The position numbers were made by a program, and so were the translations under genes. From the NCBI RefSeq assembly GCF_947496725.1, contig NZ_CANMDS010000005.1, forward strand, positions 186,001-250,000: a stretch of DNA of 64,000 nt, read 5' to 3'. Under the pieces are notes generated by a model, which made no database searches, had not been told where the DNA came from, and saw only the letters and a list, made by a program, of their open reading frames with translations. This stretch comes from an uncultured Dokdonia sp. (GTDB lineage Bacteria; Bacteroidota; Bacteroidia; Flavobacteriales; Flavobacteriaceae). Shown here piece by piece: positions 1,607 through 56,476 of the stretch. Each line of letters begins with the position of its first letter. Position 1 is the stretch's first letter.

Positions 1607-3368
1607 ATGCGAAGTTTTTAAGAAGTAAAGAAAGTGAAGCTACAGAAATACCAGCTTCTTCATATTGCTGCTCTACCGTAGCGTGTTCTATAAAAGTATC
1701 GGGTATGCCTAAGATGGTAAGGGATCCTTTGTACGCTTTCGCGAAAGCGTAATCACCCACGCTACTACCTAGACCGCCTATTTTTGAACCATCTTCTACA
1801 GTAATGATATGCTCATAAGTGGTAAAAATAGTGTCTAGTAGCGCCTTGTCTAGCGGTTTTAAAAATCCCATATCATACACACTGCAACTTGCATTTACCT
1901 CGTTTACTGCGGCCAGTACATTTTTGAGAATGCTACCTAAAGTTATAACAGCAGTCTTCTTTCCTTTGATAACGTTGTAACCTTTACCTATAGATATTTC
2001 TTTAAATGGTAATTGCCAGTTTATATGAATACCTCTCCCTCTAGGGTAACGTATCGCAATAGGATGGTCGAGACCCTGCTGGGCAGTGTACATTATATTA
2101 CGCAAAGCAATCTCATCGCTAGGCGCATAAATAATAAGATTAGGAATACAGTTAAGATAAGCTAGATCATAAACTCCTTGATGCGTGCCACCATCTTGAC
2201 CCACAAGCCCAGCCCTGTCTAAACAAAAGATAACAGGTAGGTTTTGAAGCGCTACGTCGTGTATTACTTGGTCATAAGCACGTTGTAAGAACGTTGAGTA
2301 TATATTGCAAAAAACCACCATACCCTCCGTTGCCAGTCCTGCCGAAAGTGTTACTGCGTGTTGCTCTGCAATACCCACGTCAAAAGCTCTATCTGGAAAA
2401 GCTTCAATCATATACTTGAGAGAGCTGCCGGTAGGCATTGCTGGTGTGATACCTATAATTTCTTTATTTAAAGTAGCAAGCTCAACAATGGTGTGGCCAA
2501 AAACGTCTTGATATTTAGGAGGCTGTGGAGTGCTATCTTTTGCCACTCTAATGCCTGTTGTAGCATCAAACTTGCCTGGGGCGTGATAGGTGATTTGCTC
2601 ACGCTCTGCGAGAGCGAGACCTTTACCTTTTGTAGTGATTACGTGTAAAAATTTAGGGCCATTAGTTTTCTTTAACTCCTGTAAAACCTCAATTAAGGCA
2701 TTTAAATCGTGCCCATCTACAGGCCCAAAGTAACTAAAATTAAGCGCCTCAAAAATATTTTCTTCACGAGCGGTACCTTTTTTTACGTTTGTAAGATACC
2801 TCTTGAGAGCACCTACGCTAGGGTCTATGCCTATAGCATTATCATTAAGTATTACAAGCAAGTTTGCGTCTGTAACTCCAGCGTGATTAAGCCCTTCAAA
2901 AGCCATACCACTGGCTATAGATGCATCGCCTATTACTGCTATGTGGTGACGGTTATGCGCTCCTTTGAGACCAGCAGCCATCGCCATACCCAGTGCAGCA
3001 CTTATTGAGGTACTACTGTGACCTGTACCAAAGGTGTCATAAATACTCTCACCTCTATTAGGAAAACCACTTATGCCATCTTTTTGTCTATTAGTATGAA
3101 AGATGTCTTTACGACCTGTAAGGATTTTATGCCCGTAAGCTTGGTGACCTACGTCCCAAATCAGGTTATCGCTAGGTGTGTTAAATATATAGTGTAGTGC
3201 TATGGTAAGTTCTACAACACCTAAGCTTGCACCTAGGTGCCCTTCTTTGGTAGCAATAATATCTATGATAAACCTACGTAACTCTTGGGCAAGTACTGGT
3301 AATTGCTCCGGAGCTAAAGCGCGTAAGTCCGCTGGACTTAAAATGGTATCTAGAATACTTTTTTGCAT
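1605..3368 (-). CDS. dxs: 1-deoxy-D-xylulose-5-phosphate synthase
   Basis: Thiamine-diphosphate enzyme that condenses pyruvate and glyceraldehyde 3-phosphate to DXP, the first step of the MEP isoprenoid pathway. The 587 residues are slightly shorter than the usual 620 or so. The N-terminal part has GHQAYGHKILTGR, GHSSTSISAALG and the ThDP motif beginning GDASIASGMAFEG and continuing to the ND of ILNDNAIGI. The pyrimidine-binding part has DVGIAEQHAVTLSAGLA, and a transketolase C-terminal domain follows. The ATG at 3366-3368 is chosen because the N-terminus aligns in style with the family and a TAnnTTTG element lies just upstream. A palindromic repeat at 1733-1750 encodes YAFAKAY near the C-terminus. 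The gene is divergent from tadA with a 53-bp gap. Identification is firm. Confidence 0.97.
   Translation of the reverse strand: MQKSILDTILSPADLRALAPEQLPVLAQELRRFIIDIIATKEGHLGASLGVVELTIALHYIFNTPSDNLIWDVGHQAYGHKILTGRKDIFHTNRQKDGISGFPNRGESIYDTFGTGHSSTSISAALGMAMAAGLKGAHNRHHIAVIGDASIASGMAFEGLNHAGVTDANLLVILNDNAIGIDPSVGALKRYLTNVKKGTAREENIFEALNFSYFGPVDGHDLNALIEVLQELKKTNGPKFLHVITTKGKGLALAEREQITYHAPGKFDATTGIRVAKDSTPQPPKYQDVFGHTIVELATLNKEIIGITPAMPTGSSLKYMIEAFPDRAFDVGIAEQHAVTLSAGLATEGMVVFCNIYSTFLQRAYDQVIHDVALQNLPVIFCLDRAGLVGQDGGTHQGVYDLAYLNCIPNLIIYAPSDEIALRNIMYTAQQGLDHPIAIRYPRGRGIHINWQLPFKEISIGKGYNVIKGKKTAVITLGSILKNVLAAVNEVNASCSVYDMGFLKPLDKALLDTIFTTYEHIITVEDGSKIGGLGSSVGDYAFAKAYKGSLTILGIPDTFIEHATVEQQYEEAGISVASLSLLLKNFA
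1733..1750. repeat. Iterated palindrome copy 1 (inside dxs)
   Basis: Perfect 18-bp palindrome ACGCTTTCGCGAAAGCGT. It is in frame in dxs and encodes AFAKA on the minus strand. The right flank continues TAATCACC. Confidence 0.97.
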
Positions 3369-3372
3369 CGCA

Positions 3373-3380
3373 CAAAGGTA
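3373..3380 (-). promoter_or_regulatory. Putative dxs promoter -7 element (TACCTTTG)
   Basis: On the minus strand TACCTTTG matches the Bacteroidota -7 consensus TAnnTTTG. Only four bases separate it from the dxs ATG, so the transcript would start at or very near the start codon. No clear TTTG -33 element is seen. Confidence 0.5.
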
Positions 3381-3421
3381 CGTCTTGAATCTGTATTTTT
3401 ATATTCTATAAAACACAACAG

Positions 3422-3871
3422 ATGCTAGAACCATACGACGATACCTACTTTATGAAAAAAGCACTACAAGAGGCTCAAGCCGCTTTTGATCAAGGTGAGA
3501 TACCCGTGGGAGCTGTTGTTGTGATAGATAATATGATTATAGCGAGAGCTCATAATCTTACAGAGCGCCTCACAGATGTAACTGCGCACGCAGAGATGCA
3601 GGCTATTACCAGTGCTTCAAATTATATAGGTGGTAAATATTTGCAGCAGTGCACCTTGTATGTGACGCTGGAGCCCTGCCAGATGTGTGCTGGAGCGTTG
3701 TACTGGAGCCAGATAGGGCGTATTGTGTACGGAGCGAGTGATGAACGTCGTGGTTATGAGAAAATGGGCACAACTTTGCATCCTAAAACTAAAGTGGAGC
3801 GTGGTATTCTCGCGCACGAGTGTGAGCAAATAATGAAACGCTTCTTTATAGATAAACGCGGACTTAACTAG
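3422..3871 (+). CDS. tadA: tRNA-specific adenosine deaminase (A34 to inosine)
   Basis: Zinc-dependent deaminase of the CDA superfamily, 149 residues, normal length. HAEMQAI carries the zinc-ligand His and the proton-shuttle Glu, and PCQMCAGAL supplies the two Cys ligands (PCxxC). TadA converts wobble adenosine 34 of tRNA-Arg(ACG) to inosine in the cytoplasm. The ATG at 3422 gives MLEPYDDTYFMKKALQEA; the internal Met at 3452 is an alternative because many TadA proteins start near that point. It is divergent from dxs and convergent with the DUF4130 gene. Other CDA-superfamily deaminases such as guanine deaminase are less likely given the size and motif context. Confidence 0.92.
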   Translation: MLEPYDDTYFMKKALQEAQAAFDQGEIPVGAVVVIDNMIIARAHNLTERLTDVTAHAEMQAITSASNYIGGKYLQQCTLYVTLEPCQMCAGALYWSQIGRIVYGASDERRGYEKMGTTLHPKTKVERGILAHECEQIMKRFFIDKRGLN

Positions 3872-3880
3872 TAGTAGTTA

Positions 3881-3896
3881 CGCTTTCGCGAAAGCG
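3881..3896. repeat. Iterated palindrome copy 2 (intergenic)
   Basis: Perfect 16-bp palindrome CGCTTTCGCGAAAGCG in the 46-bp gap between the convergent tadA and DUF4130 genes. As RNA it would fold into a hairpin, but there is no U-tract, so it is not a standard terminator. Confidence 0.97.
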
Positions 3897-4688: not shown

Positions 4689-4689
4689 A

Positions 4690-6065: not shown

Positions 6066-6081
6066 CGCTTTCGCGAAAGCG
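6066..6081. repeat. Iterated palindrome copy 3 (intergenic)
   Basis: Perfect 16-bp palindrome CGCTTTCGCGAAAGCG in the divergent promoter region between the radical SAM operon and the nitrilase gene. The right flank is TAATCACTTATC, like the flank of copy 1. Confidence 0.97.
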
Positions 6082-7897: not shown

Positions 7898-7911
7898 GCT
7901 TTCGCGAAAGC
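7898..7911. repeat. Iterated palindrome copy 4 (intergenic)
   Basis: Perfect 14-bp core GCTTTCGCGAAAGC in the 203-bp divergent region between the ExbD-like and RluB-like genes. The right flank is GGTTATCAC. Confidence 0.97.
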
Positions 7912-10218: not shown

Positions 10219-11873
10219 TAGAGCAATTAGAAAAGCGCCCTGTACTCGTCATCACCTTTGTGGTGCTTGGTATGTTATTACCTTTTCTAGATGCGCTAGA
10301 AGTAACCATAATGGAGGCGCGCAATTTTATCTCTGCAAGAGAGATGCTCACAGAAAATAACTGGCTACTCACTACAATGAACGGAGAGCCCCGTTATGAA
10401 AAGCCACCATTACCTACCTGGCTTACAGCATTATCAGGCTATGTGTTTGGCATAAAAAGTGTCTGGGCAATGCGACTTCCTGCGGTACTTATGGTTGTAT
10501 TATTAGGGAGTGTTGTTGTTACGCTTTCGCGAAAGCTTACTCTTTCTCCTCGTCATAGTTTACTTAATGGATTGATAAGTGTTACATCTCTTTATGTGGT
10601 GCTCATCATTTTTGAGGCTCCTTGGGATATTTATGCTCACGCATTTATGCTCTCTGGGATTTATTGCCTTTTTAGTAATTTAAGAAGTCCGTCTGGAGAA
10701 AGCAATATCTTGAAATGGGTAGTCGCAGCATTATGTCTAGGTGCATCTATACTAAGCAAAGGGCCTGTGTCGCTCTATGCACTGTTTTTACCTTTTGTGA
10801 TAGCATACCTAATACAATATAGAAGAGAGACGAGTCGTAAAAAGTGGTTGCCTTTTATAATAACCATATGTATGGGGCTCGTGATAGGTTTCTCCTGGTA
10901 TATTTATGTAAGAAGTGCAGATCCCGTAACCTTTGCAAGAATCGCCGAAAGGGAGACAGGTAATTGGACGAGTTATAATGTGCGTCCTTTTTATTACTAC
11001 TGGAGCTTTTTTGTTCAAAGTGGTCTCTGGACGATACCTGCTTTTATAAGTCTCCTTTATCCTTATTTAAAAACACGTGTGTTACACCGTAAAGAGTACA
11101 CATTTACCTTATTGTGGACCTTGCTGGCTGTCGTTTTACTATCTATCATACCAGAGAAAAAGTCTCGTTACTTGATGCCTGTTTTAATACCGCTTGCATT
11201 TACAATAGGTTTTTATATACATTATCTGGTAAGGAGCTTTAGTAAGCTTACAGATAGAAGAGAGACCTTGCCGGTTTATTTCAATATTGGGTTGATAGGT
11301 ACTTTAATTATACTGGGAGGTTTAGCGCTGCTTACACTGGGGTGGCAATTGGCTTACCTCTCTGTATTAGATATTCTACCCGGTGTTTTTGTTGTTTTAG
11401 CTGGGATTTGTATCATTTACTTTCTAGTAAAAAAGGAGCTCTATAAGAGCTTGCTATCTCTCGTTATTGCTCTTATATTACTCGTTAATGTCGGTTTTAA
11501 TGAAAGGTCTCAATTTAAGGAGTATGCTCACCAGTCTGTCAAGAGTAGCTCACTAGATAATCGAGTTGAGACTTCTTTTAAAGCCTTTGAGAACTTACCG
11601 GCACTACCTGTGTATGGACTTAATGGTGCTACTCCAGAAATGGTGTGGGCTGCAGGTCAAAAAATCCCAAGGCTTTGTAAAGATGATGAGCTTGTGATGC
11701 CAGGTGAAGATAGTTTTTATACACTTGTTTTCTTTGAAGACGATTGGCTCGTATCTGAAACCTTTCCAGATATGCAACATAAGTTTATGTTTACTTTAGA
11801 GCTTAATACAGCAGACCAAGCTAGTCGCAATTATACTGATAGAAAAGTGGCTAGTGTTTATCTAGTTGAGTAG
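10215..11873 (+). CDS. ArnT-like GT39/GT83 membrane glycosyltransferase
   Basis: The 552-residue polytopic membrane protein begins at GTG 10215, overlapping the previous stop as GTGA, a sign of translational coupling. ARNFISAREM and the NGEPRYEKPPLPTWLTALS segment near residues 33-70 are the hallmark of the PMT/ArnT family, which moves a sugar from an undecaprenyl-phosphate carrier to lipid A, protein or glycan on the periplasmic face. Around eleven hydrophobic segments follow, with a soluble C-terminal tail. Palindrome copy 5 encodes TLSRKLT in a short loop after helix 2. Its 3' end overlaps that of the convergent glycosyltransferase gene by 23 bases. The acceptor is not predictable. Confidence 0.88.
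   Translation: MIEQLEKRPVLVITFVVLGMLLPFLDALEVTIMEARNFISAREMLTENNWLLTTMNGEPRYEKPPLPTWLTALSGYVFGIKSVWAMRLPAVLMVVLLGSVVVTLSRKLTLSPRHSLLNGLISVTSLYVVLIIFEAPWDIYAHAFMLSGIYCLFSNLRSPSGESNILKWVVAALCLGASILSKGPVSLYALFLPFVIAYLIQYRRETSRKKWLPFIITICMGLVIGFSWYIYVRSADPVTFARIAERETGNWTSYNVRPFYYYWSFFVQSGLWTIPAFISLLYPYLKTRVLHRKEYTFTLLWTLLAVVLLSIIPEKKSRYLMPVLIPLAFTIGFYIHYLVRSFSKLTDRRETLPVYFNIGLIGTLIILGGLALLTLGWQLAYLSVLDILPGVFVVLAGICIIYFLVKKELYKSLLSLVIALILLVNVGFNERSQFKEYAHQSVKSSSLDNRVETSFKAFENLPALPVYGLNGATPEMVWAAGQKIPRLCKDDELVMPGEDSFYTLVFFEDDWLVSETFPDMQHKFMFTLELNTADQASRNYTDRKVASVYLVE
10521..10536. repeat. Iterated palindrome copy 5 (inside the ArnT-like gene)
   Basis: ACGCTTTCGCGAAAGC contains the exact 14-bp core. 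It reads TLSRK in frame, a different frame from copy 1. Confidence 0.96.
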
Positions 11874-13278
11874 CAGGTTTTGGCTTCCAAAACACTTCCC
11901 AAACAAAAAATCCTATAACAGTGATATACTCTATAGCGACAAGCCATAGGTTTTCATTAAAGCCATCTGCACCATAGGCTGCGTAGCTTAATAGGATTGT
12001 AGCGCTCCAGACTAAAGGAAAGCGATAGCGAGTAAACACACATAGTAATAATGGTGTCGCTACATACCAAGGGTGTACGGTAGTCGATAATAAGAAGTAA
12101 AAAAACATCCCTATGAGGATGGCTGTTATCATAGCCTGCAAGCTTCGATTGTTACGTATAAAAGCGAGTAGTACAAGAAGTACAACTGCAATTTTGGGTA
12201 ACAAGGGCCCTACATCTCCTATAATATTCCAGCCTATAACTTGATAGCCTATATACCTTATGATGTAATAGATGCTTGCATTAAATTCAAATTTTTGAAA
12301 CCATAAGGCAATGGTGGTGCCAAAATTTTCAGCAAAAGCACCGCTTAAAAATGGTATAAATGTGAGTGCCATAACTCCTAGGGTGATGAGGTAAAAGTAA
12401 ATGAGTCTGGGTATGTTTGTTTTTATTTCGCGAAAGCGGACTTTCCAAGGATATGAACTTCTAAAGTGGGTTGTCTTACCGCCACCTCTGGTTAAGAAGT
12501 ATTGCATAAATAGGGGTAAAAATAACAGCGGTAATAGCTTAGTTGATATGGAGAGTGCTAAGAACACAGCACTTAAAATCCATTTGCCTTGCGATAACTT
12601 GTAAAGGGATAGTACAACAAGAAAAAGCATCACAGACTCAAAGTGCAAGTTGCCCGTCATCTCGATGATGATAAAAGGATTTAAGGCATACCAGAAGATG
12701 TTATAAATGGGTAAACCTAGCTTAGTAAGTAATTTTTTACCATAGATGATTGTACCTATATCTGCTAGTATAATTACTATTCTGAATGTGATAACGCTTC
12801 CTAGTATACTTTTACTTGAGAAGAATGCTGCAACTAAGAATATGAGCTGGTTAATAGGTGGGTAGTTTGTAAAATGACTAGCATTGAGTGTACCCATACC
12901 TGCATAGAGCTCTTGAGCTTGTGCTACTATGCTTATTGTACCTGCATCAATATAACTTTGTGGAGTGCTTAAATACGGGTTGTAACCCTGTATGAGCATA
13001 CGGCCATCCCAAATAAACCTATAGAAGTCTTGAGAGAGGTTAGGCGTGGCATTTATAAAAATTATTCTGGCTAGGATGGCAATAAAAAAGAGAAGGCCAA
13101 AATCGTTTTTACTGCTCTTTACGATTAGATAAAAAGAGGCAAATAAAATACTGTAAAGACTTACTAGAAGAGGGAAATCTGATCTTTGTAAGTGATGTGC
13201 AAATAGATAGTAAACAACAAGGGAAACAACTGCAAGAAGCAATGAGGTTTTTTGATATTTCCACAGGGCTGCTATCAC
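11851..13278 (-). CDS. Polytopic membrane glycosyltransferase (GT87/mannosyltransferase-like)
   Basis: The 475 residues carry about twelve hydrophobic helices. The start is GTG 13276-13278, overlapping the preceding stop as GTGA. The first periplasmic loop contains SQDFYRFIWDGRMLIQGYNP, the acidic loop motif of GT-C mannosyltransferases of the GT87 or PIG-M kind that use polyprenyl-phosphate sugars. A later STTVHPWYVATPLLLC segment also fits that superfamily. It is the last gene of a four-gene minus-strand operon with two GT2 enzymes, which probably make or elongate a cell-surface glycan or glycolipid. A degenerate palindrome at 12426-12439 encodes FREI within a cytoplasmic-type basic loop. 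The exact family is uncertain. Confidence 0.78.
   Translation of the reverse strand: MIAALWKYQKTSLLLAVVSLVVYYLFAHHLQRSDFPLLVSLYSILFASFYLIVKSSKNDFGLLFFIAILARIIFINATPNLSQDFYRFIWDGRMLIQGYNPYLSTPQSYIDAGTISIVAQAQELYAGMGTLNASHFTNYPPINQLIFLVAAFFSSKSILGSVITFRIVIILADIGTIIYGKKLLTKLGLPIYNIFWYALNPFIIIEMTGNLHFESVMLFLVVLSLYKLSQGKWILSAVFLALSISTKLLPLLFLPLFMQYFLTRGGGKTTHFRSSYPWKVRFREIKTNIPRLIYFYLITLGVMALTFIPFLSGAFAENFGTTIALWFQKFEFNASIYYIIRYIGYQVIGWNIIGDVGPLLPKIAVVLLVLLAFIRNNRSLQAMITAILIGMFFYFLLSTTVHPWYVATPLLLCVFTRYRFPLVWSATILLSYAAYGADGFNENLWLVAIEYITVIGFFVWEVFWKPKPATQLDKH
12426..12439. repeat. Degenerate copy of the iterated palindrome
   Basis: The region reads ATTTCGCGAAAGCG. The core TTTCGCGAAAGCG is intact, but the left end GC is replaced by AT. 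It lies inside the GT87-like gene at about the position where the spacing of other copies would place one. Confidence 0.6.
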
Positions 13279-14765: not shown

Positions 14766-15457
14766 TACTTAAAACTGTATTTAAAAATCCACCCTAATAT
14801 TTTTACTCCTGCCATAACTGCGCCCTTTACAGTACCAGATACTTTTGAAACGCCTATGCGGTTTCTGTAGTTTACGGATACTTCGGTATATTTCATTTTC
14901 TTTTTTAAGACCTTAAGTTGCATCTCTACAGTCCAGCCATATGTTTTATCTTCCATCTCTAAGGCGAGGAGGCTATCATATTTCATTGCTCTAAATGGGC
15001 CAAGATCTGTAAAACGTGCGCCAAAAAATAGACTCATAAGCGTTGTGGCTAGCCAGTTTCCAAAAATTTGTGGTCCTGTCATAGACCCGCTTTCGCGAAA
15101 GCGTTTATCTCTAGCACCAATCACCATATCACAGTTGTCTTGCACAATAGGTGCGATTATCTTAGTAAGCTCTTCTGGGTAATCACTATAATCACCATCT
15201 AAAAAAACAACAATGTCTGGCTTAGGAGTATGGCTCGCAATATAATTCATCCCTTTAAGGCAAGCATAGCCATAACCCATTTGCTCTTCTCTTAAAACGG
15301 TAGCTCCATTTTCTTGAGCAACTTGCTCTGTGTTATCTGTAGAGGCATTACTTACTACAATTACTTCGTTGACAATAGCGGGAATGTCTTGCAGAACAAG
15401 TCCTATAGAATCTTGTTCATTGTAGGCTGGTATAATAACTTTTATAAGGGGCTCCAT
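14765..15457 (-). CDS. Family 2 glycosyltransferase (polyprenyl-phosphate type)
   Basis: The preferred start ATG 15455-15457 gives MEPLIKVIIPAYNEQDSIG, 230 residues; the longer frame from 15490 would overlap the upstream gene and adds an unlikely tail. Motifs are PAYNEQ, VVSNASTDNTEQ, FLDGDYSDYPEE and GARDKRFRES. The enzyme resembles DPM1/UgtP-like GT2 proteins that add a sugar to a lipid phosphate. It is the second gene of the minus-strand glycan operon, four bases after the MORN-like gene and overlapping the next by one base. Palindrome copy 6 falls in the KRFRES stretch, a surface loop. Confidence 0.88.
   Translation of the reverse strand: MEPLIKVIIPAYNEQDSIGLVLQDIPAIVNEVIVVSNASTDNTEQVAQENGATVLREEQMGYGYACLKGMNYIASHTPKPDIVVFLDGDYSDYPEELTKIIAPIVQDNCDMVIGARDKRFRESGSMTGPQIFGNWLATTLMSLFFGARFTDLGPFRAMKYDSLLALEMEDKTYGWTVEMQLKVLKKKMKYTEVSVNYRNRIGVSKVSGTVKGAVMAGVKILGWIFKYSFK
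15088..15103. repeat. Iterated palindrome copy 6 (inside a GT2 gene)
   Basis: Perfect 16-bp palindrome CGCTTTCGCGAAAGCG. Read on the minus strand it encodes RFRES, the third possible frame. Confidence 0.97.
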
Positions 15458-16011: not shown

Positions 16012-17127
16012 ATGGAGTTTAGTTTTTGGGAGCAAGAAACGTGGTTTACTAATGTAGATTATACCGTAGTAGGAAGCGGTATTGTAGGGCTTACGTGTGC
16101 TTTACGCTTACGCGAAAGGTTTCCGAAAGCAAAGATACTCGTGTTAGAAAGAGGAATACTTCCTAATGGTGCAAGTACAAAAAATGCGGGTTTTGCCTGT
16201 TTTGGTAGTATTTCAGAAATACTAGATGATCTAAAATCACACTCAGAAGATGAAGTTGTAGCTCTTGTAAAAAAAAGAATAGAAGGCCTCACAAAACTGC
16301 GAGCGTTGCTTATTGATAAGAGTATCGACTATCAAGAAAACGGAGGCTATGAGCTATTTTTAAAGAAGGATAACAGTCTCTATAAGCAATGTGTTGAAGC
16401 CATACCTACCATAAATAAATTGCTATTTCCTATTTTCAAAAAGGAAGTATATAGCTTAAAACCAAATGACCTGCAATGTGATGGAATCTATGATCAAGTA
16501 ATCTTTAATAATTGTGAGGGGCAAATAGATACTGGGCGTATGATGCAATCACTTTTGCAACTCGCTCAGTCTAAGGGAATCTTGATTTTGAATAATACAA
16601 GCGTAATTTCTTATGCCGAAAATGCTAGTGAAGTAACCGTTTTCACTAGCTCTGTACAGTTCAAAACAAAAAAGCTCCTCATTGCTACAAATGGCTTTGC
16701 AAAAAAGCTAGGTCTTACTCAAGTAAAACCTGCACGAGCACAGGTTTTGATAACTAATAAAATACCTGATTTGCATCTTAAAGGGACCTTTCATCTTGAT
16801 AGAGGGTATTACTATTTTAGAAATATAAATGGAAGGATACTTTTAGGCGGTGGCCGTAACCTCGATTTTAAAGGAGAGGAAACCACTGTAATCGCACAAA
16901 CAGAAGTCATACAGCAAGAGCTAGAACGCTTACTTAAAGAAGTTATACTGCCACATACAAAGTTTGAAATAGCACATAGGTGGAGTGGCATTATGGGGGT
17001 AGGTAGCCAGAAACAGCCTTTACTTAAAAAAATATCAGACCACACGTATTGTGGGGTTCGGCTAGGAGGTATGGGTGTTGCCATAGGTGCAACTGTGGGA
17101 GAAGACTTGGCAAATCTTATTCCGTAG
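16012..17127 (+). CDS. FAD-dependent oxidoreductase, D-amino-acid oxidase (DAO) family
   Basis: The 371 residues open with the dinucleotide-binding VVGSGIVGLTCALRLRERF and a downstream VLERG acidic strand end, so FAD is bound at the N-terminus. ASTKNAGFACFGS is the usual second FAD contact of the DAO/glycine oxidase group. A C-terminal HRWSGIMGVGSQKQP and GVRLGGMGVAIGATVGE complete the fold. The family oxidises amines or amino acids. No signal peptide is seen, so it is probably cytoplasmic. It is followed by the GreA-like gene 44 bases downstream. The substrate is unknown. A poorly matching relative of the palindrome lies at 16104-16120. Confidence 0.88.
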   Translation: MEFSFWEQETWFTNVDYTVVGSGIVGLTCALRLRERFPKAKILVLERGILPNGASTKNAGFACFGSISEILDDLKSHSEDEVVALVKKRIEGLTKLRALLIDKSIDYQENGGYELFLKKDNSLYKQCVEAIPTINKLLFPIFKKEVYSLKPNDLQCDGIYDQVIFNNCEGQIDTGRMMQSLLQLAQSKGILILNNTSVISYAENASEVTVFTSSVQFKTKKLLIATNGFAKKLGLTQVKPARAQVLITNKIPDLHLKGTFHLDRGYYYFRNINGRILLGGGRNLDFKGEETTVIAQTEVIQQELERLLKEVILPHTKFEIAHRWSGIMGVGSQKQPLLKKISDHTYCGVRLGGMGVAIGATVGEDLANLIP

Positions 17128-37177: not shown

Positions 37178-37210
37178 AACAACTAATCTAAAGACTAATT
37201 ATATAGGATT

Positions 37211-38971: not shown

Positions 38972-38977
38972 TTAAGT

Positions 38978-39508: not shown

Positions 39509-39517
39509 GTCAACGCA

Positions 39518-40216: not shown

Positions 40217-40245
40217 TAACTAACGGAACAACCGATATTTAAGAT

Positions 40246-41610
40246 ATGTACACATTATCTAAAAACTTAAAATTATCAGCGATTATCTTTATGGTAGTAG
40301 GATTTGTCCTATTTGCTGTAGATTACGTTTTCTTACCAAAGACAATAGCAGATATTGAAGCAATGCACGCAGGTGATGCCCACGGAGGTGGTCACGGAGA
40401 TGCAACAGTTGCAGATGCTCACGAAGCAGATACACACCACGTAGCAACCGATGATGCACACGCAGAAGACGGTCACGTAATGACCGAAGAAGAGCATAAT
40501 GAGCACTTACTAGCAGGTTACCAAAATAAACCTTGGTCTGCTGTTTATATCGCTGCTTTTTTCTTCTTTATGATTTCTCTAGGGTGTCTTGCATTCTACG
40601 CAGTACAATATGCTGCTCAGGCTGGATGGTCGCCTTTATTACTTAGAGTGATGGAGGGTATAACAGGATATCTTTTACCTGGAAGTATAATAATGTTTGT
40701 TTTACTAGCATTATCTGGATTCCATTTTAACCATATGTTCCACTGGATGGCAGATGGAATTACTGATCCAGCAAGTGATAACTATGATAAGCTTATTGCT
40801 GGTAAATCAGGATGGTTAAATGTGCCTTGGTTACTTATTAGAGCTGCAATTTTTATTGCTGGATGGAATATTTACAGATTCTTTGCTGTAAAGTTCTCAA
40901 AAGAGCAGGATGAAGCATCTGATAACAAATCACATAAAAAGTCATTTAAAATTGCGGCAGCATTCTTAGTGTTCTTCTTATACACTGAGTCAATGATGTC
41001 TTGGGATTGGATTATGTCTATCGATCCTCACTGGTTTAGTACTCTCTTTGGATGGTACGTACTTGCAGGTATGATGGTTTGTGGTATAACTACCATCGCT
41101 CTCATAACTATGATACTTAAGGGTGCAGGTTACTTACAGAGTGTAAATGATAGCCACATACACGATCTTGCTAAATTTATGTTCGGTTTCAGTATTTTCT
41201 GGACGTACTTATGGTTCTCACAGTTTATGCTTATATGGTACTCAAACATACCAGAAGAGGTAACGTATTACATACAACGTATTGAAGATTATAACTTACC
41301 ATTCTTTGGTATGTTAGTTATGAATTTCCTTTTCCCATTATTAATATTAATGAATAGCGATTTCAAACGAGTTAACTGGTTTGTAGTAATGGCTGGTATA
41401 GTAATCTTATTAGGTCACTATGTAGACATCTTCAATATGGTTATGCCAGGTACAGTAGGACAGGCTTGGTCGTTTGGATTTGTAGAAATAGGATCACTTA
41501 TGTTCTTCTTTGGATTGTTTGTACTGATTGTTTTCAGTTCACTTACAAAACGTCCTTTAGAGCCTAAGCGTAATCCGCTTATTGAAGAAAGTAAACACTT
41601 TCACTATTAG
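40246..41610 (+). CDS. actF: Alternative complex III subunit F, NrfD-like membrane protein
   Basis: The 454 residues have about ten membrane helices and belong to the quinol:cytochrome c oxidoreductase F family, paralogous to ActC. After the first helix (SAIIFMVVGFVLFAVDYVFL), residues 41-87 form a loop with ten histidines among Ala, Asp, Glu and Gly, perhaps metal-binding. Later segments SMMSWDWIMSIDPHWFSTLF and FWTYLWFSQFMLIWYSNIPE are typical. It forms the second membrane arm of the complex. Twenty-nine bases separate it from actE and 27 from coxB. Confidence 0.92.
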   Translation: MYTLSKNLKLSAIIFMVVGFVLFAVDYVFLPKTIADIEAMHAGDAHGGGHGDATVADAHEADTHHVATDDAHAEDGHVMTEEEHNEHLLAGYQNKPWSAVYIAAFFFFMISLGCLAFYAVQYAAQAGWSPLLLRVMEGITGYLLPGSIIMFVLLALSGFHFNHMFHWMADGITDPASDNYDKLIAGKSGWLNVPWLLIRAAIFIAGWNIYRFFAVKFSKEQDEASDNKSHKKSFKIAAAFLVFFLYTESMMSWDWIMSIDPHWFSTLFGWYVLAGMMVCGITTIALITMILKGAGYLQSVNDSHIHDLAKFMFGFSIFWTYLWFSQFMLIWYSNIPEEVTYYIQRIEDYNLPFFGMLVMNFLFPLLILMNSDFKRVNWFVVMAGIVILLGHYVDIFNMVMPGTVGQAWSFGFVEIGSLMFFFGLFVLIVFSSLTKRPLEPKRNPLIEESKHFHY

Positions 41611-41637
41611 AATATAGATTAAAGAAGTTAGAAAGCA

Positions 41638-42720
41638 ATGACAGGTTTATTAGCACTCATCGTAGTAATTCTATTTGTAGTCACACTTTGGCAAATGTCA
41701 AAGATTTTTAAACTATCTCAGTTTAATAAGAAGACCAATAGTGAAAATGCTCAAGTAGCAGACGATAAAGACAACAGAATCAATGGTAAATTGATGTTGA
41801 TGTTTATCACATTTTTATATGCCATAACTATTTACTGTTTCTGGAATTACAGTAAGTTTTATTTGCCAGAACCATCTTCTGAGCACGGAGCAGATTATGA
41901 CACCTTGTTATTTATCTCTCTTGCACTTATAATGTTCGTACAAGTAATCACACAAGCATTACTTCATTACTTTGCATATAAGTACTCAGGTAAGAAAGGT
42001 CAAAAGGCATTATTCTATGCAGATAATGATAAGTTAGAGTTTATCTGGACTATTATTCCAGTAATAGTTCTTGCAGGTCTTATTATCTATGGTCTTTTTA
42101 CTTGGTCAGATATAATGAACTTTGAAGAGGACGAGGATGCTATAGTTGTAGAATTATATGCAAAGCGTTTCGGTTGGCAAGCACGTTATGCCGGAGAGGA
42201 TAATATCTTAGGTAACGCAAATGTTCGTTTCATTGAAGGAGCAAACACAGTAGGTGTTGATGAAAGTGATGCTGATGCAATGGATGATAAAATTACAACA
42301 GAGCTTCACCTTCCAGTAGGACGCCAGGTAATCTTTAAGTTACGTTCTCAAGATGTATTACACTCTGCTTATATGCCTCATTTTAGAGCGCAAATGAACG
42401 TTGTACCAGGTATGATAACTCAATTCTCTTTTACTCCATCTAAAACTACTGCAGAGATTCGTGATACGGATTATATGAAAGATAAGATGGCTACTATCAA
42501 AGAGATTAGAAAAGAAAAAAATAAAGCTTCTATAGCGGCAGGAGACGGCCCTATAGATTCTTATGACGAATTTGACTATTACTTGCTATGTAATAAGATT
42601 TGTGGAGCATCGCACTATAATATGCAGATGAAGATTGTTGTTGAAACTCAAGAAGAATATGACGCTTGGATTGCAACTCAAAAAACATTTGGCAGCTCTA
42701 TAGCAGCAGCTCAAGAATAA
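41638..42720 (+). CDS. coxB: Cytochrome c oxidase subunit II
   Basis: The 360 residues have an N-terminal helix followed by two membrane helices, LMLMFITFLYAITIYCFWNY and FIWTIIPVIVLAGLIIYGLF. A cupredoxin domain follows. The CuA ligands are in DVLHSAYMPHFRAQ (His) and CNKICGASHYNM (C318, C322, H326, M329). It receives electrons for the oxidase from complex III. An insertion between the helices and the CuA core, including IKEIRKEKNKASI, lengthens it. It sits directly behind actF, showing that the two complexes are co-expressed and probably form a supercomplex. Confidence 0.95.
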   Translation: MTGLLALIVVILFVVTLWQMSKIFKLSQFNKKTNSENAQVADDKDNRINGKLMLMFITFLYAITIYCFWNYSKFYLPEPSSEHGADYDTLLFISLALIMFVQVITQALLHYFAYKYSGKKGQKALFYADNDKLEFIWTIIPVIVLAGLIIYGLFTWSDIMNFEEDEDAIVVELYAKRFGWQARYAGEDNILGNANVRFIEGANTVGVDESDADAMDDKITTELHLPVGRQVIFKLRSQDVLHSAYMPHFRAQMNVVPGMITQFSFTPSKTTAEIRDTDYMKDKMATIKEIRKEKNKASIAAGDGPIDSYDEFDYYLLCNKICGASHYNMQMKIVVETQEEYDAWIATQKTFGSSIAAAQE

Positions 42721-42756
42721 AAAAAGAAAAAGAAAAATTAACTAAAGAATCTAGGT

Positions 42757-44580
42757 ATGGCAGCACACGCAGCAACAGCAGATCACGGTCACGATGATCA
42801 CGAGCACCACCACGAGCAAACGTTTATAACGAAATATATCTTTAGTACTGATCACAAGATGATCTCAAAGCAGTATTTGATTACTGGTTTGGTAATGGGT
42901 ATTATAGGTATTGGGATGTCATTGATATTCCGTTTACAACTGGCTTGGCCAGATCACCAATTTACTATTTATGAAGTACTCTTAGGAGACTGGGGTAAAG
43001 ACGGTGTAATGGATCCAAACATTTATCTTGCACTTATTACTATACACGGTACCATAATGGTATTCTTTGTACTTACAGCAGGTCTGAGTGGTACTTTTAG
43101 TAACTTATTGATTCCACTTCAGATTGGAGCGAGGGATATGGCTTCTGGATTCCTTAATATGGTATCTTACTGGCTCTTCTTCCTTTCTTCTGTAATAATG
43201 GTATTATCATTATTTGTAGAGTCAGGACCAGCAGCAGCAGGTTGGACTATCTATCCACCATTATCTGCACTACCTAACAGTATACCTGCTTCAGGAATGG
43301 GTATGACATTGTGGTTAGTAGCGATGGCAATATTCATTGCATCATCACTATTAGGTTCACTTAACTATGTTGTTACAGTACTTAACCTTCGTACAAAGGG
43401 GATGACTATGACAAGATTACCACTTACAATATGGGCTTTTTTCGTGACTGCTATTATCGGTGTGGTTTCTTTCCCAGTTCTTTTATCTGCAGCTTTAATG
43501 CTTATTATGGATAGAAGCTTTGGTACGTCATTCTTCTTATCTGATATTTATATTGGAGGAGAAGTATTACATAACTCTGGTGGTTCACCAGTATTATTTG
43601 AGCACCTTTTCTGGTTCTTAGGTCACCCTGAGGTATACATTGTATTATTACCAGCACTAGGTATCTCATCAGAGATAATATCTACAAACTCACGTAAGCC
43701 TATATTTGGTTACCGAGCGATGATTGCTTCTATTTTAGCAATTGCATTCTTATCAACTATTGTATGGGGTCACCATATGTTTATTTCAGGTATGAACCCA
43801 TTCTTGGGATCTGTATTTACATTTACAACCCTATTAATTGCAATTCCATCTGCTGTAAAAGCTTTTAACTATATCACAACCTTGTGGAAGGGTAACCTTC
43901 AGTTCAACCCTGGTATGCTTTTCTCAGTAGGATTAGTTTCTACTTTTATTTCTGGTGGACTTACAGGTATCATACTTGGAGATTCAACGTTAGATATAAA
44001 CGTACACGATACGTATTTTGTAGTAGCTCACTTCCACTTAGTAATGGGTATCTCTGCATTATATGGACTTTTTGCAGGTGTGTATCACTGGTTCCCAAAA
44101 ATGTTTGAAGGTAAAATGATGAACAAGAACCTAGGTTACGTTCACTTCTGGATTACAGTTATTGGAGCTTATGGTATTTTCTTCCCAATGCACTTTATCG
44201 GTATGGCAGGATTACCTAGACGTTACTATACAAACTCAGCTTTCCCATATTTCGATGATCTTGTAGATGTAAACAAAGCGATATCTATTTTTGCTTTCAT
44301 TACAGCGGCTGCACAGCTAGTATTCTTATACAACTTCATACACTCAATGTTCTATGGAAAAGTAGGTTCTAAGAACCCTTGGAAATCTAACACATTAGAG
44401 TGGACAACAGATCACAAGCATATACACGGTAACTGGGCAGGTGCAATTCCTGAAGTACACCGCTGGCCATATGATTATTCTAAATTGAATAAAGATGAGT
44501 CAGATTATGTTATTGCTGGTCAAGACTATGTGCCGCAAACAGTTCCACTTCAAGACAATGAAGAAGAAATGCATCACTAG
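42757..44580 (+). CDS. coxA: Cytochrome c oxidase subunit I (aa3-type)
   Basis: The 607 residues form the catalytic twelve-helix subunit. FLGHPEVYIVLLPALG holds the CuB His and the cross-linked Tyr, WGHHMFISGMNP the other two CuB His, and VAHFHLVMG the heme ligands. The N-terminal tail is unusual in having seven His among the first 19 residues. It reduces O2 to water while pumping protons in the inner membrane. It is the last gene of the act-cox operon, ended by a terminator 37 bases downstream. No coxC or assembly gene is present in this window. Confidence 0.96.
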   Translation: MAAHAATADHGHDDHEHHHEQTFITKYIFSTDHKMISKQYLITGLVMGIIGIGMSLIFRLQLAWPDHQFTIYEVLLGDWGKDGVMDPNIYLALITIHGTIMVFFVLTAGLSGTFSNLLIPLQIGARDMASGFLNMVSYWLFFLSSVIMVLSLFVESGPAAAGWTIYPPLSALPNSIPASGMGMTLWLVAMAIFIASSLLGSLNYVVTVLNLRTKGMTMTRLPLTIWAFFVTAIIGVVSFPVLLSAALMLIMDRSFGTSFFLSDIYIGGEVLHNSGGSPVLFEHLFWFLGHPEVYIVLLPALGISSEIISTNSRKPIFGYRAMIASILAIAFLSTIVWGHHMFISGMNPFLGSVFTFTTLLIAIPSAVKAFNYITTLWKGNLQFNPGMLFSVGLVSTFISGGLTGIILGDSTLDINVHDTYFVVAHFHLVMGISALYGLFAGVYHWFPKMFEGKMMNKNLGYVHFWITVIGAYGIFFPMHFIGMAGLPRRYYTNSAFPYFDDLVDVNKAISIFAFITAAAQLVFLYNFIHSMFYGKVGSKNPWKSNTLEWTTDHKHIHGNWAGAIPEVHRWPYDYSKLNKDESDYVIAGQDYVPQTVPLQDNEEEMHH

Positions 44581-44617
44581 AGATGTCATAACATAAATCA
44601 TACTTTTATGATTACTT

Positions 44618-44646
44618 AAAACCCATTCTTAACGAGTGGGTTTTTT
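44618..44646 (+). terminator. Intrinsic terminator of the act-cox operon
   Basis: An 11-bp stem (AAAACCCATTC, 44618-44628, with GAGTGGGTTTT, 44634-44644, one wobble) has a 5-nt loop and a T-run to 44646. A palindrome copy begins seven bases further on. Confidence 0.9.
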
Positions 44647-44652
44647 AGTTTT

Positions 44653-44670
44653 ACGCTTTCGCGAAAGCGT
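44653..44670. repeat. Iterated palindrome copy 14 (intergenic, after the cox terminator)
   Basis: Perfect 18-bp palindrome ACGCTTTCGCGAAAGCGT, seven bases after the terminator T-run. Confidence 0.97.
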
Positions 44671-45820: not shown

Positions 45821-47146
45821 ATGTCTAGTGATATTCCAGCAGTTTCGGTTTTAAAGTTTCTGGCAAATGCTGGGAGTATTTTAAAGAATCCGCTTCCTTT
45901 TCATCACGATAATTTTGAGAGTAAGGGTGATACCTTTAAGTTGCAGTTGGGCTTTGGTAATGAAGTTGTCTTCTCTAGAGATCCAGGCTTCGCAAAGTAT
46001 GCTTTGCAAAAAAACCAGCGCAACTACACAAAGTCACCCATTCAGACTAAAGATCTTGCAAAGTATGTAGGCGAGGGACTTTTAACCTCAGAAGGTTCTC
46101 TATGGAAAAAACAACGAAAACTCATACAACCAGCCTTTCATAAAAAGCAGCTTGCACAGCTTATAGAAGCTATGCATACAGTAATAAAGGAGGAGTTACA
46201 AAACATAAAAACAGGAGAGGCGTTTGATGTATTTGAGATATTTAATGACCTTGCTTTTAACACAGTTGCAAAGTCACTCTTTCAGACCGAGGTAGATCGT
46301 AAAAAGATAAACCGCCTGCAATATATTACAGAGCAAGCGCAAAAGATGCTCGTAAAAGAGTTGAGACAACCTTATAAATCTTGGTATTTTAAGTATGCTG
46401 GACCTATAGACAAGCACCTGGCTCTTACTCAAGAGGCGCGTGATATACTTATGGAACTCGTAGAAGAACGTCGAGCATCACAACAAAAGGTAGGAGACTT
46501 ACTAGATATGCTTCTGGAGTCTACTTATGAGGATGGCACAGGTATGGATGATGAGCAACTCATAGATGAGATTCTCATACTCTTTACAGCGGGTCACGAG
46601 ACAACCTCAAATGCGCTTACATTTGCCGCCTCATTACTTGCAAGACATCCAGAATGGCAAGATAAAATTTATGAGGAATACGCTTTCGCGAAAGCGAACT
46701 CAACATCATTAAACGAGTTTTTAAGACATTGTACAGTCACTAAGCAAGTGCTAGAGGAAACAATGCGACTTTACCCACCAGCTTACTTCATAGACAGAGT
46801 AAATATTGAAGAAGATGAATATAATGGGATGAAGATACCGGTAGGTTCTAATTTATTATTTTCGTGTATTGAGATTCACAAGCACGACGATTTTTGGGAA
46901 GATCCATTACAATTTAACCCTACTCGATTTGATGAAAATGCGGGGATGTATCACGATGCCTATTTCCCATTTGGGGCGGGACCTAGAATGTGTATAGGTA
47001 ATAACTTTGCAATGTATGAAATGATTCTTGCGGTTACCGAAATGGTATCCCGTTTTAAAATCACTCCTATAAACACACCTATAGAACTATTACCGCTCAT
47101 TACCCTTAAGCCAAAAAATGCAATCTTAGAGTTTACTGCAAGATAG
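45821..47146 (+). CDS. Cytochrome P450
   Basis: The 441 residues have the full P450 set. The I-helix AGHETTSNA begins at 257, the K-helix is [15 protein letters not shown], and the heme-ligand motif [13 protein letters not shown] has Cys391. No N-terminal membrane anchor is seen, so it is a soluble bacterial enzyme needing a separate ferredoxin or flavodoxin partner. The style is that of the CYP102/CYP4-like group acting on fatty acids or terpenoids, but the substrate cannot be read. Palindrome copy 15 encodes YAFAKAN between the I- and K-helices. It lies 37 bases after ruvB, and queG starts one base after its stop. Confidence 0.93.
46681..46696. repeat. Iterated palindrome copy 15 (inside the P450 gene)
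   Basis: Perfect 16-bp palindrome CGCTTTCGCGAAAGCG, encoding AFAKA. Confidence 0.97.
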
Positions 47147-51129: not shown

Positions 51130-52969
51130 TATAAAGGAAACACTTAGTCACTTGCTAGAGCAAGAAGACACAGATGGAGATAAGAAAATCACAGTAGAAG
51201 ATCAAGGGCCTAAGCAGTTTGACATTGCTCTGTATGGAGATGATAACGCTTTCGCGAAAGCGTATACTATAAAAGGAACCTACCATCTTTCTAATTTTTT
51301 ACAGGAGCTCGCTTTAGAAAGAGCGCTTAGTAAAACCGAAGCTATAATTCCTTTGTGGAAAATAGAGGAGCAACCCACTAGCCGCATTAACCGAATGATA
51401 CGTGATTACTTCTGGGACGACCTCACACGTACAATAGATAAGAAGGGGCTTGCAAATATCCTCACAGACACAAAAGCTGGAGATAGCGTACAACGTATGT
51501 ATGTGCCTGGAACAGATCAAGAGGGTGTAGCATATTATAATAATCTAAAGACAGATTTTCCTAATCTAGAGGTTGTGGTGCTTCCTCTAGAGATTACTCC
51601 AGAGTATGTTAAGTCCATAAATGAGAAGCCAGGCATTCTGGCATTGGGTCTTGAGGGTAAAAACGGAATTCCGTTTGTAGTGCCTGGAGGAAGGTTTAAT
51701 GAGATGTATGGATGGGATAGCTATTTTGAAGGTGTAGGGTTACTGCTAGATAACCGTGTAGATCTAGCTAAAGCTATGATTGATAATTTTTGCTATCAAA
51801 TCACACATTATGGTAAGATATTAAATGCAAATAGGAGTTATTATCTCACTCGTGCACAGCCTCCATTTTTGAGTTCGTTTATAAGAGAAACTTTTGAAAA
51901 AGATTCAAGCCTAGGTAAGGAGTGGCTTGCAAGTGTTCTAGCTATTGCAATACAAGAGTATGAAAGTGTATGGATGAGAGCGCCTAGATATACAGATAAT
52001 GGTCTCAATCGTTATTATGCACAAGGTGTAGGAGTGCCGCCAGAGACAGAAGAAGGTCATTTTGATGAGCATCTAGCCGTTGTGGCAAAGAAAGAAGGTT
52101 GTAGTATAGAAGAACTGGTGAGTAACTATCAAAATGGAGGTCTAGACTTACCTGAGTTAGATCGTTACTTTACACACGATAGAAGTTTACGTGAGAGCGG
52201 TCACGATACCTCGTGGCGACTTGACGATGTGTGTGCAGATCTAAACACGGTAGATCTTAATAGTTTATTATATAAGTATGAGATAGACTTTGAGTACCTC
52301 ATTGCTACTTATTTTGCGGGTGACTTCAAAGGCAAAAAATCTAGATATTATAAAGAAAGTGCGCTAGCTCGCAAGGAGCGTATAGATACCCTTATGTGGA
52401 ATGAAAATAAGAGCCAGTACTTTGATTATAATTTTGTCACAAAGCAGAAAACTGAATTTGAAAGTGCTTCAAATTACTTTCCATTATGGGCAGGTCTGCT
52501 AGATAATGATAAAGCAATGAAGACCGTAAGACGTCTTATGATGGATCTTAAAGAAAAGGGAGGTGTAGCAGGTACAAGTCGCGCTATGAATACAATCATC
52601 CCAGAAGGAGCAGTACAGCGCCAGTGGGATTATCCTAACGGCTGGGCTCCGCACCAGATGATGATATGGCGAGGACTTAAAGCATATGGTTTTGATAAAG
52701 AATTACAAGAGCTTGTGTACAGGTGGTTGTGGATGATTACTAGAAATGCCGTAGACTATAATGGGGTTATACCTGAGAAGTACGATGTCGTATCTGCAAC
52801 GCATAAAGTTTTTGCAGAGTATGGTAACGTGGGGACCGAGTTTGATTATATAACAACTAGTGGTTTTGGGTGGATGAATGCTAGTTATCAATTAGGGCTT
52901 TCATTGCTGAATCCTAAATTGAGAGCAGCCCTAGATAACCTTGAAGATCCAGAAAAAGTATTTAATTAA
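51113..52969 (+). CDS. Trehalase, GH37, cytoplasmic
   Basis: The chosen start ATG 51113 gives MYFKGNIKETLSHLLEQ and 618 residues; an upstream TTG in the frame is less likely. Both GH37 signatures are present: PGGRFNEMYGWDSYF from residue 191 and QWDYPNGWAPHQ from 504. The enzyme hydrolyses alpha,alpha-trehalose to two glucose. There is no signal peptide, so it acts in the cytosol on imported or internal trehalose. An extra N-terminal region of about 130 residues is present. Palindrome copy 16 encodes NAFAKAY within it. It overlaps the MFS gene upstream and precedes the PfkB kinase by 13 bases. Confidence 0.93.
   Translation: MYFKGNIKETLSHLLEQEDTDGDKKITVEDQGPKQFDIALYGDDNAFAKAYTIKGTYHLSNFLQELALERALSKTEAIIPLWKIEEQPTSRINRMIRDYFWDDLTRTIDKKGLANILTDTKAGDSVQRMYVPGTDQEGVAYYNNLKTDFPNLEVVVLPLEITPEYVKSINEKPGILALGLEGKNGIPFVVPGGRFNEMYGWDSYFEGVGLLLDNRVDLAKAMIDNFCYQITHYGKILNANRSYYLTRAQPPFLSSFIRETFEKDSSLGKEWLASVLAIAIQEYESVWMRAPRYTDNGLNRYYAQGVGVPPETEEGHFDEHLAVVAKKEGCSIEELVSNYQNGGLDLPELDRYFTHDRSLRESGHDTSWRLDDVCADLNTVDLNSLLYKYEIDFEYLIATYFAGDFKGKKSRYYKESALARKERIDTLMWNENKSQYFDYNFVTKQKTEFESASNYFPLWAGLLDNDKAMKTVRRLMMDLKEKGGVAGTSRAMNTIIPEGAVQRQWDYPNGWAPHQMMIWRGLKAYGFDKELQELVYRWLWMITRNAVDYNGVIPEKYDVVSATHKVFAEYGNVGTEFDYITTSGFGWMNASYQLGLSLLNPKLRAALDNLEDPEKVFN
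51246..51263. repeat. Iterated palindrome copy 16 (inside the trehalase gene)
   Basis: Perfect 18-bp palindrome ACGCTTTCGCGAAAGCGT, encoding NAFAKAY. Confidence 0.97.
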
Positions 52970-52982: not shown

Positions 52983-53936
52983 GTGAAAAGAGACTTAGAT
53001 ATTTTATGTGTAGGTGAGGTACTTATAGATTTTATAGGCCATCAAAAAGAAGTACGTATAGATAAAACACGTGATTACCACAGGTACTTAGGAGGTAGTC
53101 CTACTAATGTAGCGATGAATCTCGCACGACTGGGTATGAATGTAAAACTTGCCGCTACCATAGGAGATGATGGGCTAGGCGTTTACATTAAAGATAAACT
53201 TACCGAAAATGGTGTGCAGACAAATCTCATAGCGACAGATCCTGAAAATCCTACGAGTGTGATTTTTGTGTCAAAAACTACAGGCACACCAGATTTTATA
53301 CCTTATCGGTATGCAGACACTAAGATCTCAGAAGCTCAAGTGCCTGATGCTTTGCTAGCGCAAACTACTATTTTTCATACCACAGCATTTGCCCTAAGTA
53401 AGAAGCCTGCAAGAACTACAATTTTAACCAAAGCAAAAAAAGCTTACGAAGCTGGTTGTACACTTAGTATAGATCTTAATTACTCGCCTCGTATTTATCC
53501 TAATAGGGAGAAGGCTATAAAAACCTTTAGAGAGTATTGCTCATATAACCCGCTCGTGAAGATAAGTGAGGATGATATGGAGCGCCTTTTTGGTGAGAAA
53601 AGAAGTCACGAGGCTATTTTTGATTTCTTCCATAATGATTTTGGGGTAGAGCTTGTTTGTCTCACCTTAGGATCAGAAGGGGTTAAGCTTTCGCGAAAGC
53701 GTAAAAATCACCCTCCAGAAATGATTATTGAGCCAGCGGCAAGAGTTGAGCAAATACTTGATGCTACGGGAGCAGGAGATGCTTTTTGGAGTGGATTCTT
53801 ATTTGCCTACATAAGAGAGTATGATATCAGAAAATGTCTCAAAGTGGCGCTGTCACTGGCGGCTATAAAATTACAGCACGTGGGTAGATTGCCACAAAAT
53901 GTGGATATACTCACCCAGTTGCTAGATTTTAAATAA
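52983..53936 (+). CDS. PfkB-family sugar kinase
   Basis: The 317 residues begin at GTG 52983. LCVGEVLIDFIG, YLGGSPTNVAMNLARLG (PfkB signature 1) and DATGAGDAFWSGFLFA (signature 2, from residue 260, with the catalytic Asp at 266) are complete. The family includes fructokinase, 2-keto-3-deoxygluconate kinase and 5-dehydro-2-deoxygluconokinase. Here, after a trehalase and two sugar permeases, a fructokinase-like or other hexose kinase role is inferred. Palindrome copy 17 encodes KLSRKRKN in a loop. It ends the cluster. Confidence 0.9.
   Translation: MKRDLDILCVGEVLIDFIGHQKEVRIDKTRDYHRYLGGSPTNVAMNLARLGMNVKLAATIGDDGLGVYIKDKLTENGVQTNLIATDPENPTSVIFVSKTTGTPDFIPYRYADTKISEAQVPDALLAQTTIFHTTAFALSKKPARTTILTKAKKAYEAGCTLSIDLNYSPRIYPNREKAIKTFREYCSYNPLVKISEDDMERLFGEKRSHEAIFDFFHNDFGVELVCLTLGSEGVKLSRKRKNHPPEMIIEPAARVEQILDATGAGDAFWSGFLFAYIREYDIRKCLKVALSLAAIKLQHVGRLPQNVDILTQLLDFK
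53687..53700. repeat. Iterated palindrome copy 17 (inside the PfkB gene)
   Basis: Exact 14-bp core GCTTTCGCGAAAGC, flanked by AA on the left and GTAAAAATCACC on the right. It encodes LSRKR. Confidence 0.96.
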
Positions 53937-56319: not shown

Positions 56320-56327
56320 TGGTTTTA

Positions 56328-56343
56328 CGCTTTCGCGAAAGCG
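56328..56343. repeat. Iterated palindrome copy 18 (intergenic, between maeB and its terminator)
   Basis: Perfect 16-bp palindrome CGCTTTCGCGAAAGCG, nine bases after the maeB stop and 21 bases before the terminator stem. The right flank is AAAATCACACC. Confidence 0.97.
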
Positions 56344-56364
56344 AAAATCACACCTCATAATTTT

Positions 56365-56397
56365 AAAGGTTCAGGCGTTAGTCTGAACCTTTTTTTT
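56365..56397 (+). terminator. Intrinsic terminator of maeB
   Basis: A 10-bp stem (AAAGGTTCAG, 56365-56374, with CTGAACCTTT, 56383-56392) has an 8-nt loop and a T-run to 56397. Confidence 0.92.
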
Positions 56398-56462
56398 ATG
56401 TTCAAGAATAGAAAGGAAATCACGATGTAAGTCTGTTAAGACGCGATGTAATGTTGTTAAAA

Positions 56463-56476
56463 GCTTTCGCGAAAGC
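56463..56476. repeat. Iterated palindrome copy 19 (intergenic, before ruvA)
   Basis: Exact 14-bp core GCTTTCGCGAAAGC, only 135 bases from the previous copy and 68 bases before ruvA. It is the last copy in the window. Confidence 0.97.

Follow-up and report, generated by a model that had tools for sequence, protein, structure and literature searches.

Copies of a 14-bp palindrome in the window

The 64,000-nucleotide stretch analyzed here (hereafter the window; contig NZ_CANMDS010000005.1, positions 186,001 to 250,000, from an uncultured Dokdonia sp. of the Flavobacteriaceae) carries 19 perfect copies of the 14-bp palindrome GCTTTCGCGAAAGC. An earlier note on this DNA had claimed 19 exact copies, eight intergenic and eleven genic, and a chance expectation far below one; the count is exact, with the claimed starts 0–2 bases off, the split matches the list of open reading frames, and none of 100 dinucleotide shuffles of the window contained a copy. 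The two partial copies it had named are likewise real, and a third, absent from its list, starts at 16106. Also absent from it were the regular spacing, the symmetric G-poor flanks and the presence in viral contigs described below. The copies are as follows, where G-numbers denote genomes compared with that of the window (G000).

1735–1748, no strand: exact 14-bp core in a gene; G016, G007, G008 and G005 each have an exact copy at the orthologous base
3882–3895, no strand: exact core, intergenic
6067–6080, no strand: exact core, intergenic
7898–7911, no strand: exact core, intergenic; only G016 keeps it
10523–10536, no strand: exact core in a gene
12424–12437, no strand: two-mismatch copy TATTTCGCGAAAGC; one outer GC gone
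15089–15102, no strand: exact core in a gene
16106–16119, no strand: two-mismatch copy GCTTACGCGAAAGG; may be unrelated
17590–17603, no strand: exact core in a gene
21807–21820, no strand: exact core in a gene
24432–24445, no strand: exact core in a gene; degenerate in G007
26173–26186, no strand: exact core, intergenic; copy displaced within the same gap in relatives
31889–31902, no strand: exact core, intergenic; only G016 keeps it
32437–32450, no strand: exact core in a gene
35648–35661, no strand: exact core in a gene; exact in 5/5 relatives
39755–39768, no strand: one-mismatch copy GCTTCCGCGAAAGC, within the longest gap of the 464-kb sample described below (35648 to 44655, 9007 bp)
44655–44668, no strand: exact core, intergenic; exact in 5/5 relatives
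46682–46695, no strand: exact core in a gene; exact in 5/5 relatives
51248–51261, no strand: exact core in a gene; retained by G016 and G005
53687–53700, no strand: exact core in a gene
56329–56342, no strand: exact core, intergenic; first of a close pair
56463–56476, no strand: exact core, intergenic; second of the close pair

Genome-wide abundance and spread among taxa

The window's own genome (3,291,590 bases in 121 contigs) holds 905 exact copies and none of the reversed pattern, so that the palindrome is neither at a Markov-level count nor confined to the window. A 464-kb sample of this genome contains 140 exact, five one-mismatch and 16 two-mismatch copies, against third-order Markov expectations of 0.0, 0.0 and 0.8, respectively; a fifth-order model, trained on the motif-containing sequence, expects 3.4 exact copies. 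Many of the two-mismatch forms differ only by loss of the outer GC in one arm, and only one of the 16 is still palindromic, which argues that the sequence is kept rather than a hairpin. Three copies of GCTTACGCGAAAGG are present in the sample, exceeding what chance alone would give for a near-match. Twelve genera without the motif, each sampled over 20 kb (10 kb in one case), yielded no 12-base palindrome occurring more than twice.

All 18 Dokdonia genomes searched, the window's own included, carry 369–905 copies. Among 18 other genomes of the family, one has 578, one has six and 16 have none, and each of 23 genomes from the same order has none. An even draw of 299 family genomes yielded five with more than 400 copies (905, 857, 578, 664 and 408), 56 with 1–19 and 238 without any. 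Motif-rich genomes outside Dokdonia comprise four of Nonlabens type (551–664 copies) and one of a further genus (408). Among the matches listed are Nonlabens xiamenensis (553), N. xylanidelens (664), strain BBFL7, which we take to be a Nonlabens (551), and D. sinensis (857), together with some untidy cases: two Leeuwenhoekiella genomes with 7 and 13 copies, a Saprospiraceae metagenome-assembled genome with 10 copies plus one of the reversed control, and the Cytophagaceae SAT51 metagenome-assembled genome (G339, 5.0 Mb), which, with 89, falls between the high and low classes, as a binning error or a real intermediate.

Several motif-poor genera have few copies, and these are clustered, with a pair 933 bp apart common to at least five genomes; such clusters have the look of DNA that has moved horizontally. 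The island carrying this pair (L049 1–5500; L318, L322, L325, L326) is shared across several genera of the Flavobacteriaceae and, by eye, holds efflux and copper-oxidase-like genes.

The 14-mer itself occurs in no paper of the literature searched, whose coverage mostly excludes subscription journals, and searches on Dokdonia palindromes, Bacteroidetes uptake sequences and a Nonlabens/Dokdonia motif gave nothing on this motif. The 10-mer core turns up in some papers, none of them, in the portions accessible, evidently about this motif.

Constraint on the core and turnover of sites

Comparison with G016, whose DNA is 94% identical to that of G000, aligned 113 sites, of which 111 are exact; the cores differ at two of 1582 bases, whereas about 101 changes are expected at the flank rate. 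Flanks 46–60 bp from the sites diverge by 6.36%, making the core about 50-fold slower, and position +1 shows half the background variability. Viewed from G016, the comparison again gives 111 exact sites and two changes. A further 27 G000 sites are unaligned, most of them lying in a 76-kb piece that nothing in the compared G016 stretch matches. All four sites that differ between the two genomes in aligned DNA do so by single-base changes, which does not bear out a mobile origin like that of repetitive extragenic palindromic (REP) elements, to which the earlier note had drawn an analogy.

In G007, G008 and G005, which are 78–79% identical, 12, 13 and 14 of the 19 window sites, respectively, are exact at the orthologous base, compared to 0.7 of 19 expected without constraint; G003 keeps five, its compared stretch covering 11 of the 19. 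Sites lost in most of the first three genomes tend to have a nearer neighbor (median 1145 versus 2147 bp, P = 0.02, from 19 sites and relatives that are not independent), as if a nearby second copy made them dispensable.

Placement and spacing

Using a simple gene caller, 73 of the 140 sites in the 464-kb sample were placed in genes, which cover 87% of it, and 67 in the 13% outside called genes, an intergenic enrichment already claimed from the window. Convergent, divergent and tandem gaps all contain intergenic sites (13 per 6.0 kb, 20 per 13.0 kb and 34 per 28.7 kb, respectively), with the highest density per kb in convergent gaps. Within genes, the frame reading AFAKA is the commonest (44/73). 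Sites sit wherever genes tolerate them.

Their spacing is near-regular. The 138 intervals of the sample average 3243 bp with a coefficient of variation (CV) of 0.473, against about 1 for random spacing, and none of 5000 random placements matched by gene class was as even as observed. Intervals below 1 kb number seven (40.7 expected) and those above 6 kb six (23.5 expected). CVs elsewhere, at 0.54 in G016 (133 intervals), 0.68 in G230 (99 intervals) and 0.62–0.73 in four further samples (weak evidence at 10–19 intervals each), are still below the random value but less regular than in the window's genome. Spacing also differs by species (about 3.2 kb in the window's genome versus 7.3 kb in G230), while copies per motif-rich genome stay between a few hundred and about 900.

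A wider dyad-symmetric element

Around the 14-mer core lies a larger cis element with dyad symmetry, spanning up to about 64 bp in all. The core edges are mostly TTAC/GTAA, followed on each side by about 20 bp that are G-poor on the outward strand, and each strand is GT-rich 5′ of the core. The base after the core is G in 90% of sites, and GTAA is the usual Dokdonia edge (75%, 88% and 71% at +2 to +4 of intergenic sites). From +3 to about +25 the outward-strand G frequency is 0.03–0.16, compared to 0.19, and CC and CCC are enriched in the outward flanks. This bias occurs on both sides, at coding and intergenic sites alike, and is stronger at the latter. Because it is equal on the coding and template sides of genes (upstream equals downstream on the coding strand) and the flanks show no left-right base covariation, it is a property of the DNA, and both an RNA-level effect and an extended stem are ruled out. 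No clear three-base periodicity was seen in the flanks. Nonlabens sites (n = 52) share the G-poor flank but differ in the +2 base; in G230, with seven sites (too few), the bias is not clearly visible.

Occurrence in viral contigs

Viral contigs from IMG/VR, which can be prophages, carry the palindrome at at least 120 loci in at least 111 contig groups, at least 15 of which have two or more sites. Among the matches listed, contigs chosen by having two or more sites (28 distinct sites) have an outward-flank G frequency of 0.118, against a local mean G or C of 0.197, and single-site contigs (77 flanks) show no bias (G 0.27); the viral flank signature is present but weaker than in hosts. The multi-site contigs encode a portal protein, major head protein, terminase, primase and Mu-type transposase.

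A search by terminase protein, rather than by site, recovered six relatives, of which the query and one at 84% protein identity share the exact site position at 68% DNA identity. Further exact phage pairs at 66–68% DNA identity were found through the site itself and are therefore biased, and a portal-based search returned five loci, all at least 99% identical and too alike to inform on conservation. In the cultured phages P12024S and P12024L, of a Nonlabens-type host, GGCC is absent (32 expected in each).

Candidate partner proteins and sequences

The earlier note had regarded a methylase or restriction link as possible, given the central hexamer TCGCGA. This link is not borne out: across 11 motif-rich genomes none of three methylase families is conserved (PF00145 in three, PF01555 above cut-off in two, PF02086 in five), G008, with 808 copies, matches none of them, and TCGCGA outside the motif is near expectation (39 seen, 31.6 expected). 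A Noc-type second ParB was likewise rejected, as 10 of the 11 genomes have a single ParB_N protein; the second one in G010 (616 aa) is of a size also found in motif-poor genomes.

A PDDEXK_1 protein of ~900 aa is present in 20/20 genomes, with a second one adjoining in most, and is taken to be AddB, accompanied by AddA. AddB is the usual Chi reader of AddAB enzymes. In a tree of this protein the motif-rich genomes are not grouped with confidence. The AddB-like protein evolves fast: two Dokdonia with 94% identity in their sampled DNA share 86% in this protein (L383–L390). No second Chi-like oligomer stood out in the 464-kb sample.

The tetramer CATG does not occur anywhere in the window, where about 198 copies are expected, and is almost missing from the 464-kb sample (four versus 1437 expected) and from G016 (three versus 1434). 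It is far less depleted or normal in other Dokdonia and Nonlabens samples, and CATG avoidance was rejected as a partner feature because it does not track the motif. A D12 methylase common to G000 and G016 is a candidate cause of the loss. In 40 kb of G241 (L329, L330), from another genus, avoidance is extreme for three tetramers, with counts of 0/148 for CATG, 8/177 for GATC and 1/55 for CTAG.

A proposed mark of resident DNA and its alternatives

Since none of the known DNA signals tested fits the motif, it probably serves to mark or protect the DNA of the cell itself, in a manner not yet described. Its evenness, its indifference to genes, the strong purifying selection on each site and its use by some phages suggest that any resident DNA needs it in cis every few kb, and the perfect palindrome suggests a dimeric protein acting on double-stranded DNA. 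Together with the GT-rich 5′ side of each core and the preference of RecA for GT-rich DNA, as given in the accessible part of its source (PMC3763553), these properties led us to favor a self-DNA or repair mark that a protein reads and that works as a bidirectional Chi would, a tentative choice with a rough probability of just over one in three (0.36). A sequence-specific, probably homodimeric protein would read the element on double-stranded DNA, and a near-regular mark every 3 to 7 kb could then protect resident DNA or direct double-strand-break repair. The GT-rich strand 5′ of the core would become the 3′-ended tail for RecA after resection to the site. The fuller proposal is somewhat more doubtful, namely that a regularly spaced palindromic element on every long-lived replicon, bound by a dedicated dimeric protein, licenses resident DNA of host or phage against the cell's own end-processing or defense nucleases from either side of a break.

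The likeness to Chi of RecBCD and AddAB lies in the genome-wide, gene-independent occurrence every few kb, in host and some phage DNA, within GT-rich surroundings; the presence of AddAB-like genes in all 20 genomes, the flank bias of viral sites, and the ERF and YqaJ recombination genes of P12024S and P12024L, which lack the site, are also counted for it. The GT-rich islands around E. coli Chi have been ascribed to codon usage, according to the part of the source available (PMC3763553), whereas the flank bias here is also found at intergenic sites.

Several findings weigh against a Chi-like mark. The motif is regularly spaced, perfectly palindromic over 14 bp and symmetric in its short flanks, whereas known Chi sites are short, asymmetric and act on one strand; a perfect palindrome of this length looks like a dimer's double-strand site, for which a chromosome-organizing protein would be an equally good explanation. 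None of 24 genomes has RecC (PF04257). AddB of Dokdonia and Nonlabens is only 37% identical, no closer than to that of motif-free genera, while the core is identical in both, and its alignment has no column specific to the eight motif-rich rows of 20; AddB is therefore a poor candidate, disfavored as the specific reader, and the conservation of the reader subunit that would accompany a Chi system was not found. This result speaks against the simplest form of a Chi-like mark, an objection that a site-bound protein stopping or switching the nuclease would answer. Among phages, the four terminase relatives at 51–60% protein identity lack the site even when two mismatches are allowed, leaving this unbiased conservation test at one independent relative with the site versus four without. 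P12024S and P12024L have no site in 35.7 kb each, where host density predicts about six, these two being very alike and too few for a rule.

Close behind a Chi-like mark ranks the binding site of a dedicated chromosome organizer, whose regular spacing would bridge or loop the nucleoid or load condensin or topoisomerase; we hold this to be rather unlikely. It would account for the perfect palindrome, the near-absolute exactness, the regular spacing and the gene indifference, and also for a spacing that differs by species while copies per genome stay within the bounds given above. Noc and ParB sites are 14–16 bp palindromes read by dimers, but the motif here numbers about 900 copies, no second ParB is common to the motif-rich genomes, and no reader protein emerged from the families searched (ParB_N, the three methylase families, RecC and AddB). 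Nor would such an organizer be expected to come with GT/AC flanks that are strand-asymmetric, or with copies inside phage genes.

A role in natural transformation, as a DNA uptake sequence that molecular drive maintains, is less probable still. Like the known uptake signal and DNA uptake sequences, the motif occurs in hundreds of copies, with a wider flank preference and with edge bases that vary between genera in the manner of dialects. Known uptake sequences are, like the motif here, evenly spaced and denser in non-coding DNA (PMC1939737, in part) and can have AT-rich flanks (PMC7811141, in part). They are, however, not palindromes as far as the accessible part of PMC1939737 describes them, and the motif here is sharper, with five one-mismatch forms beside 140 exact copies, compared to 947 beside 438 for the A. 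pleuropneumoniae sequence (same source, in part). At least two diverged phages, the terminase pair of ~68% DNA identity, keep the site in place, which uptake drive does not predict.

We regard a methylation or restriction mark like HIP1 (highly iterated palindrome) of cyanobacteria as very improbable. Both are highly iterated palindromes of coding and intergenic DNA, and the CG-rich center fits; selection on HIP1 and its periodicity have reportedly been the subject of a paper. The motif here is longer, at about one per 3 kb, with no methylase conserved in the three families above and TCGCGA unremarkable outside it. HIP1 is tied to orphan methylases (PMC4390886, in part), and its 1830 one-mismatch beside 5648 exact copies (PMC1939737, in part) make such forms far commoner than here. 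Least probable of all is a REP-like mobile repeat or a regulatory or terminator hairpin, which the folding of the 22-nt form (−7.3) and the intergenic enrichment might suggest, but which the single-base site differences, the loss of palindromy in nearly all two-mismatch variants, a flank bias that ignores transcription and the presence of intergenic sites in all three junction types speak against. What stands of the earlier reading is the genome-wide excess, the intergenic enrichment and HIP1 and uptake sequences as the class for comparison, and not the methylase or restriction link or the REP-like origin.

Individual features link the motif to HIP1, to uptake sequences and to Chi, but it departs from each in a tested defining feature. 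Its novelty rests on this failure of the known kinds, and would be less should the reader turn out to belong to a known class of Chi, uptake or nucleoid proteins. Cis elements so numerous, exact and evenly spaced are few in bacteria, and any mechanism has to account for the length scale of 3 to 7 kb given by the regular spacing. If the element is a self mark or a nucleoid organizer, its reader would add a new factor to chromosome maintenance in bacteria that are abundant in the sea, and the phages that copy the mark would provide a natural assay of its value.

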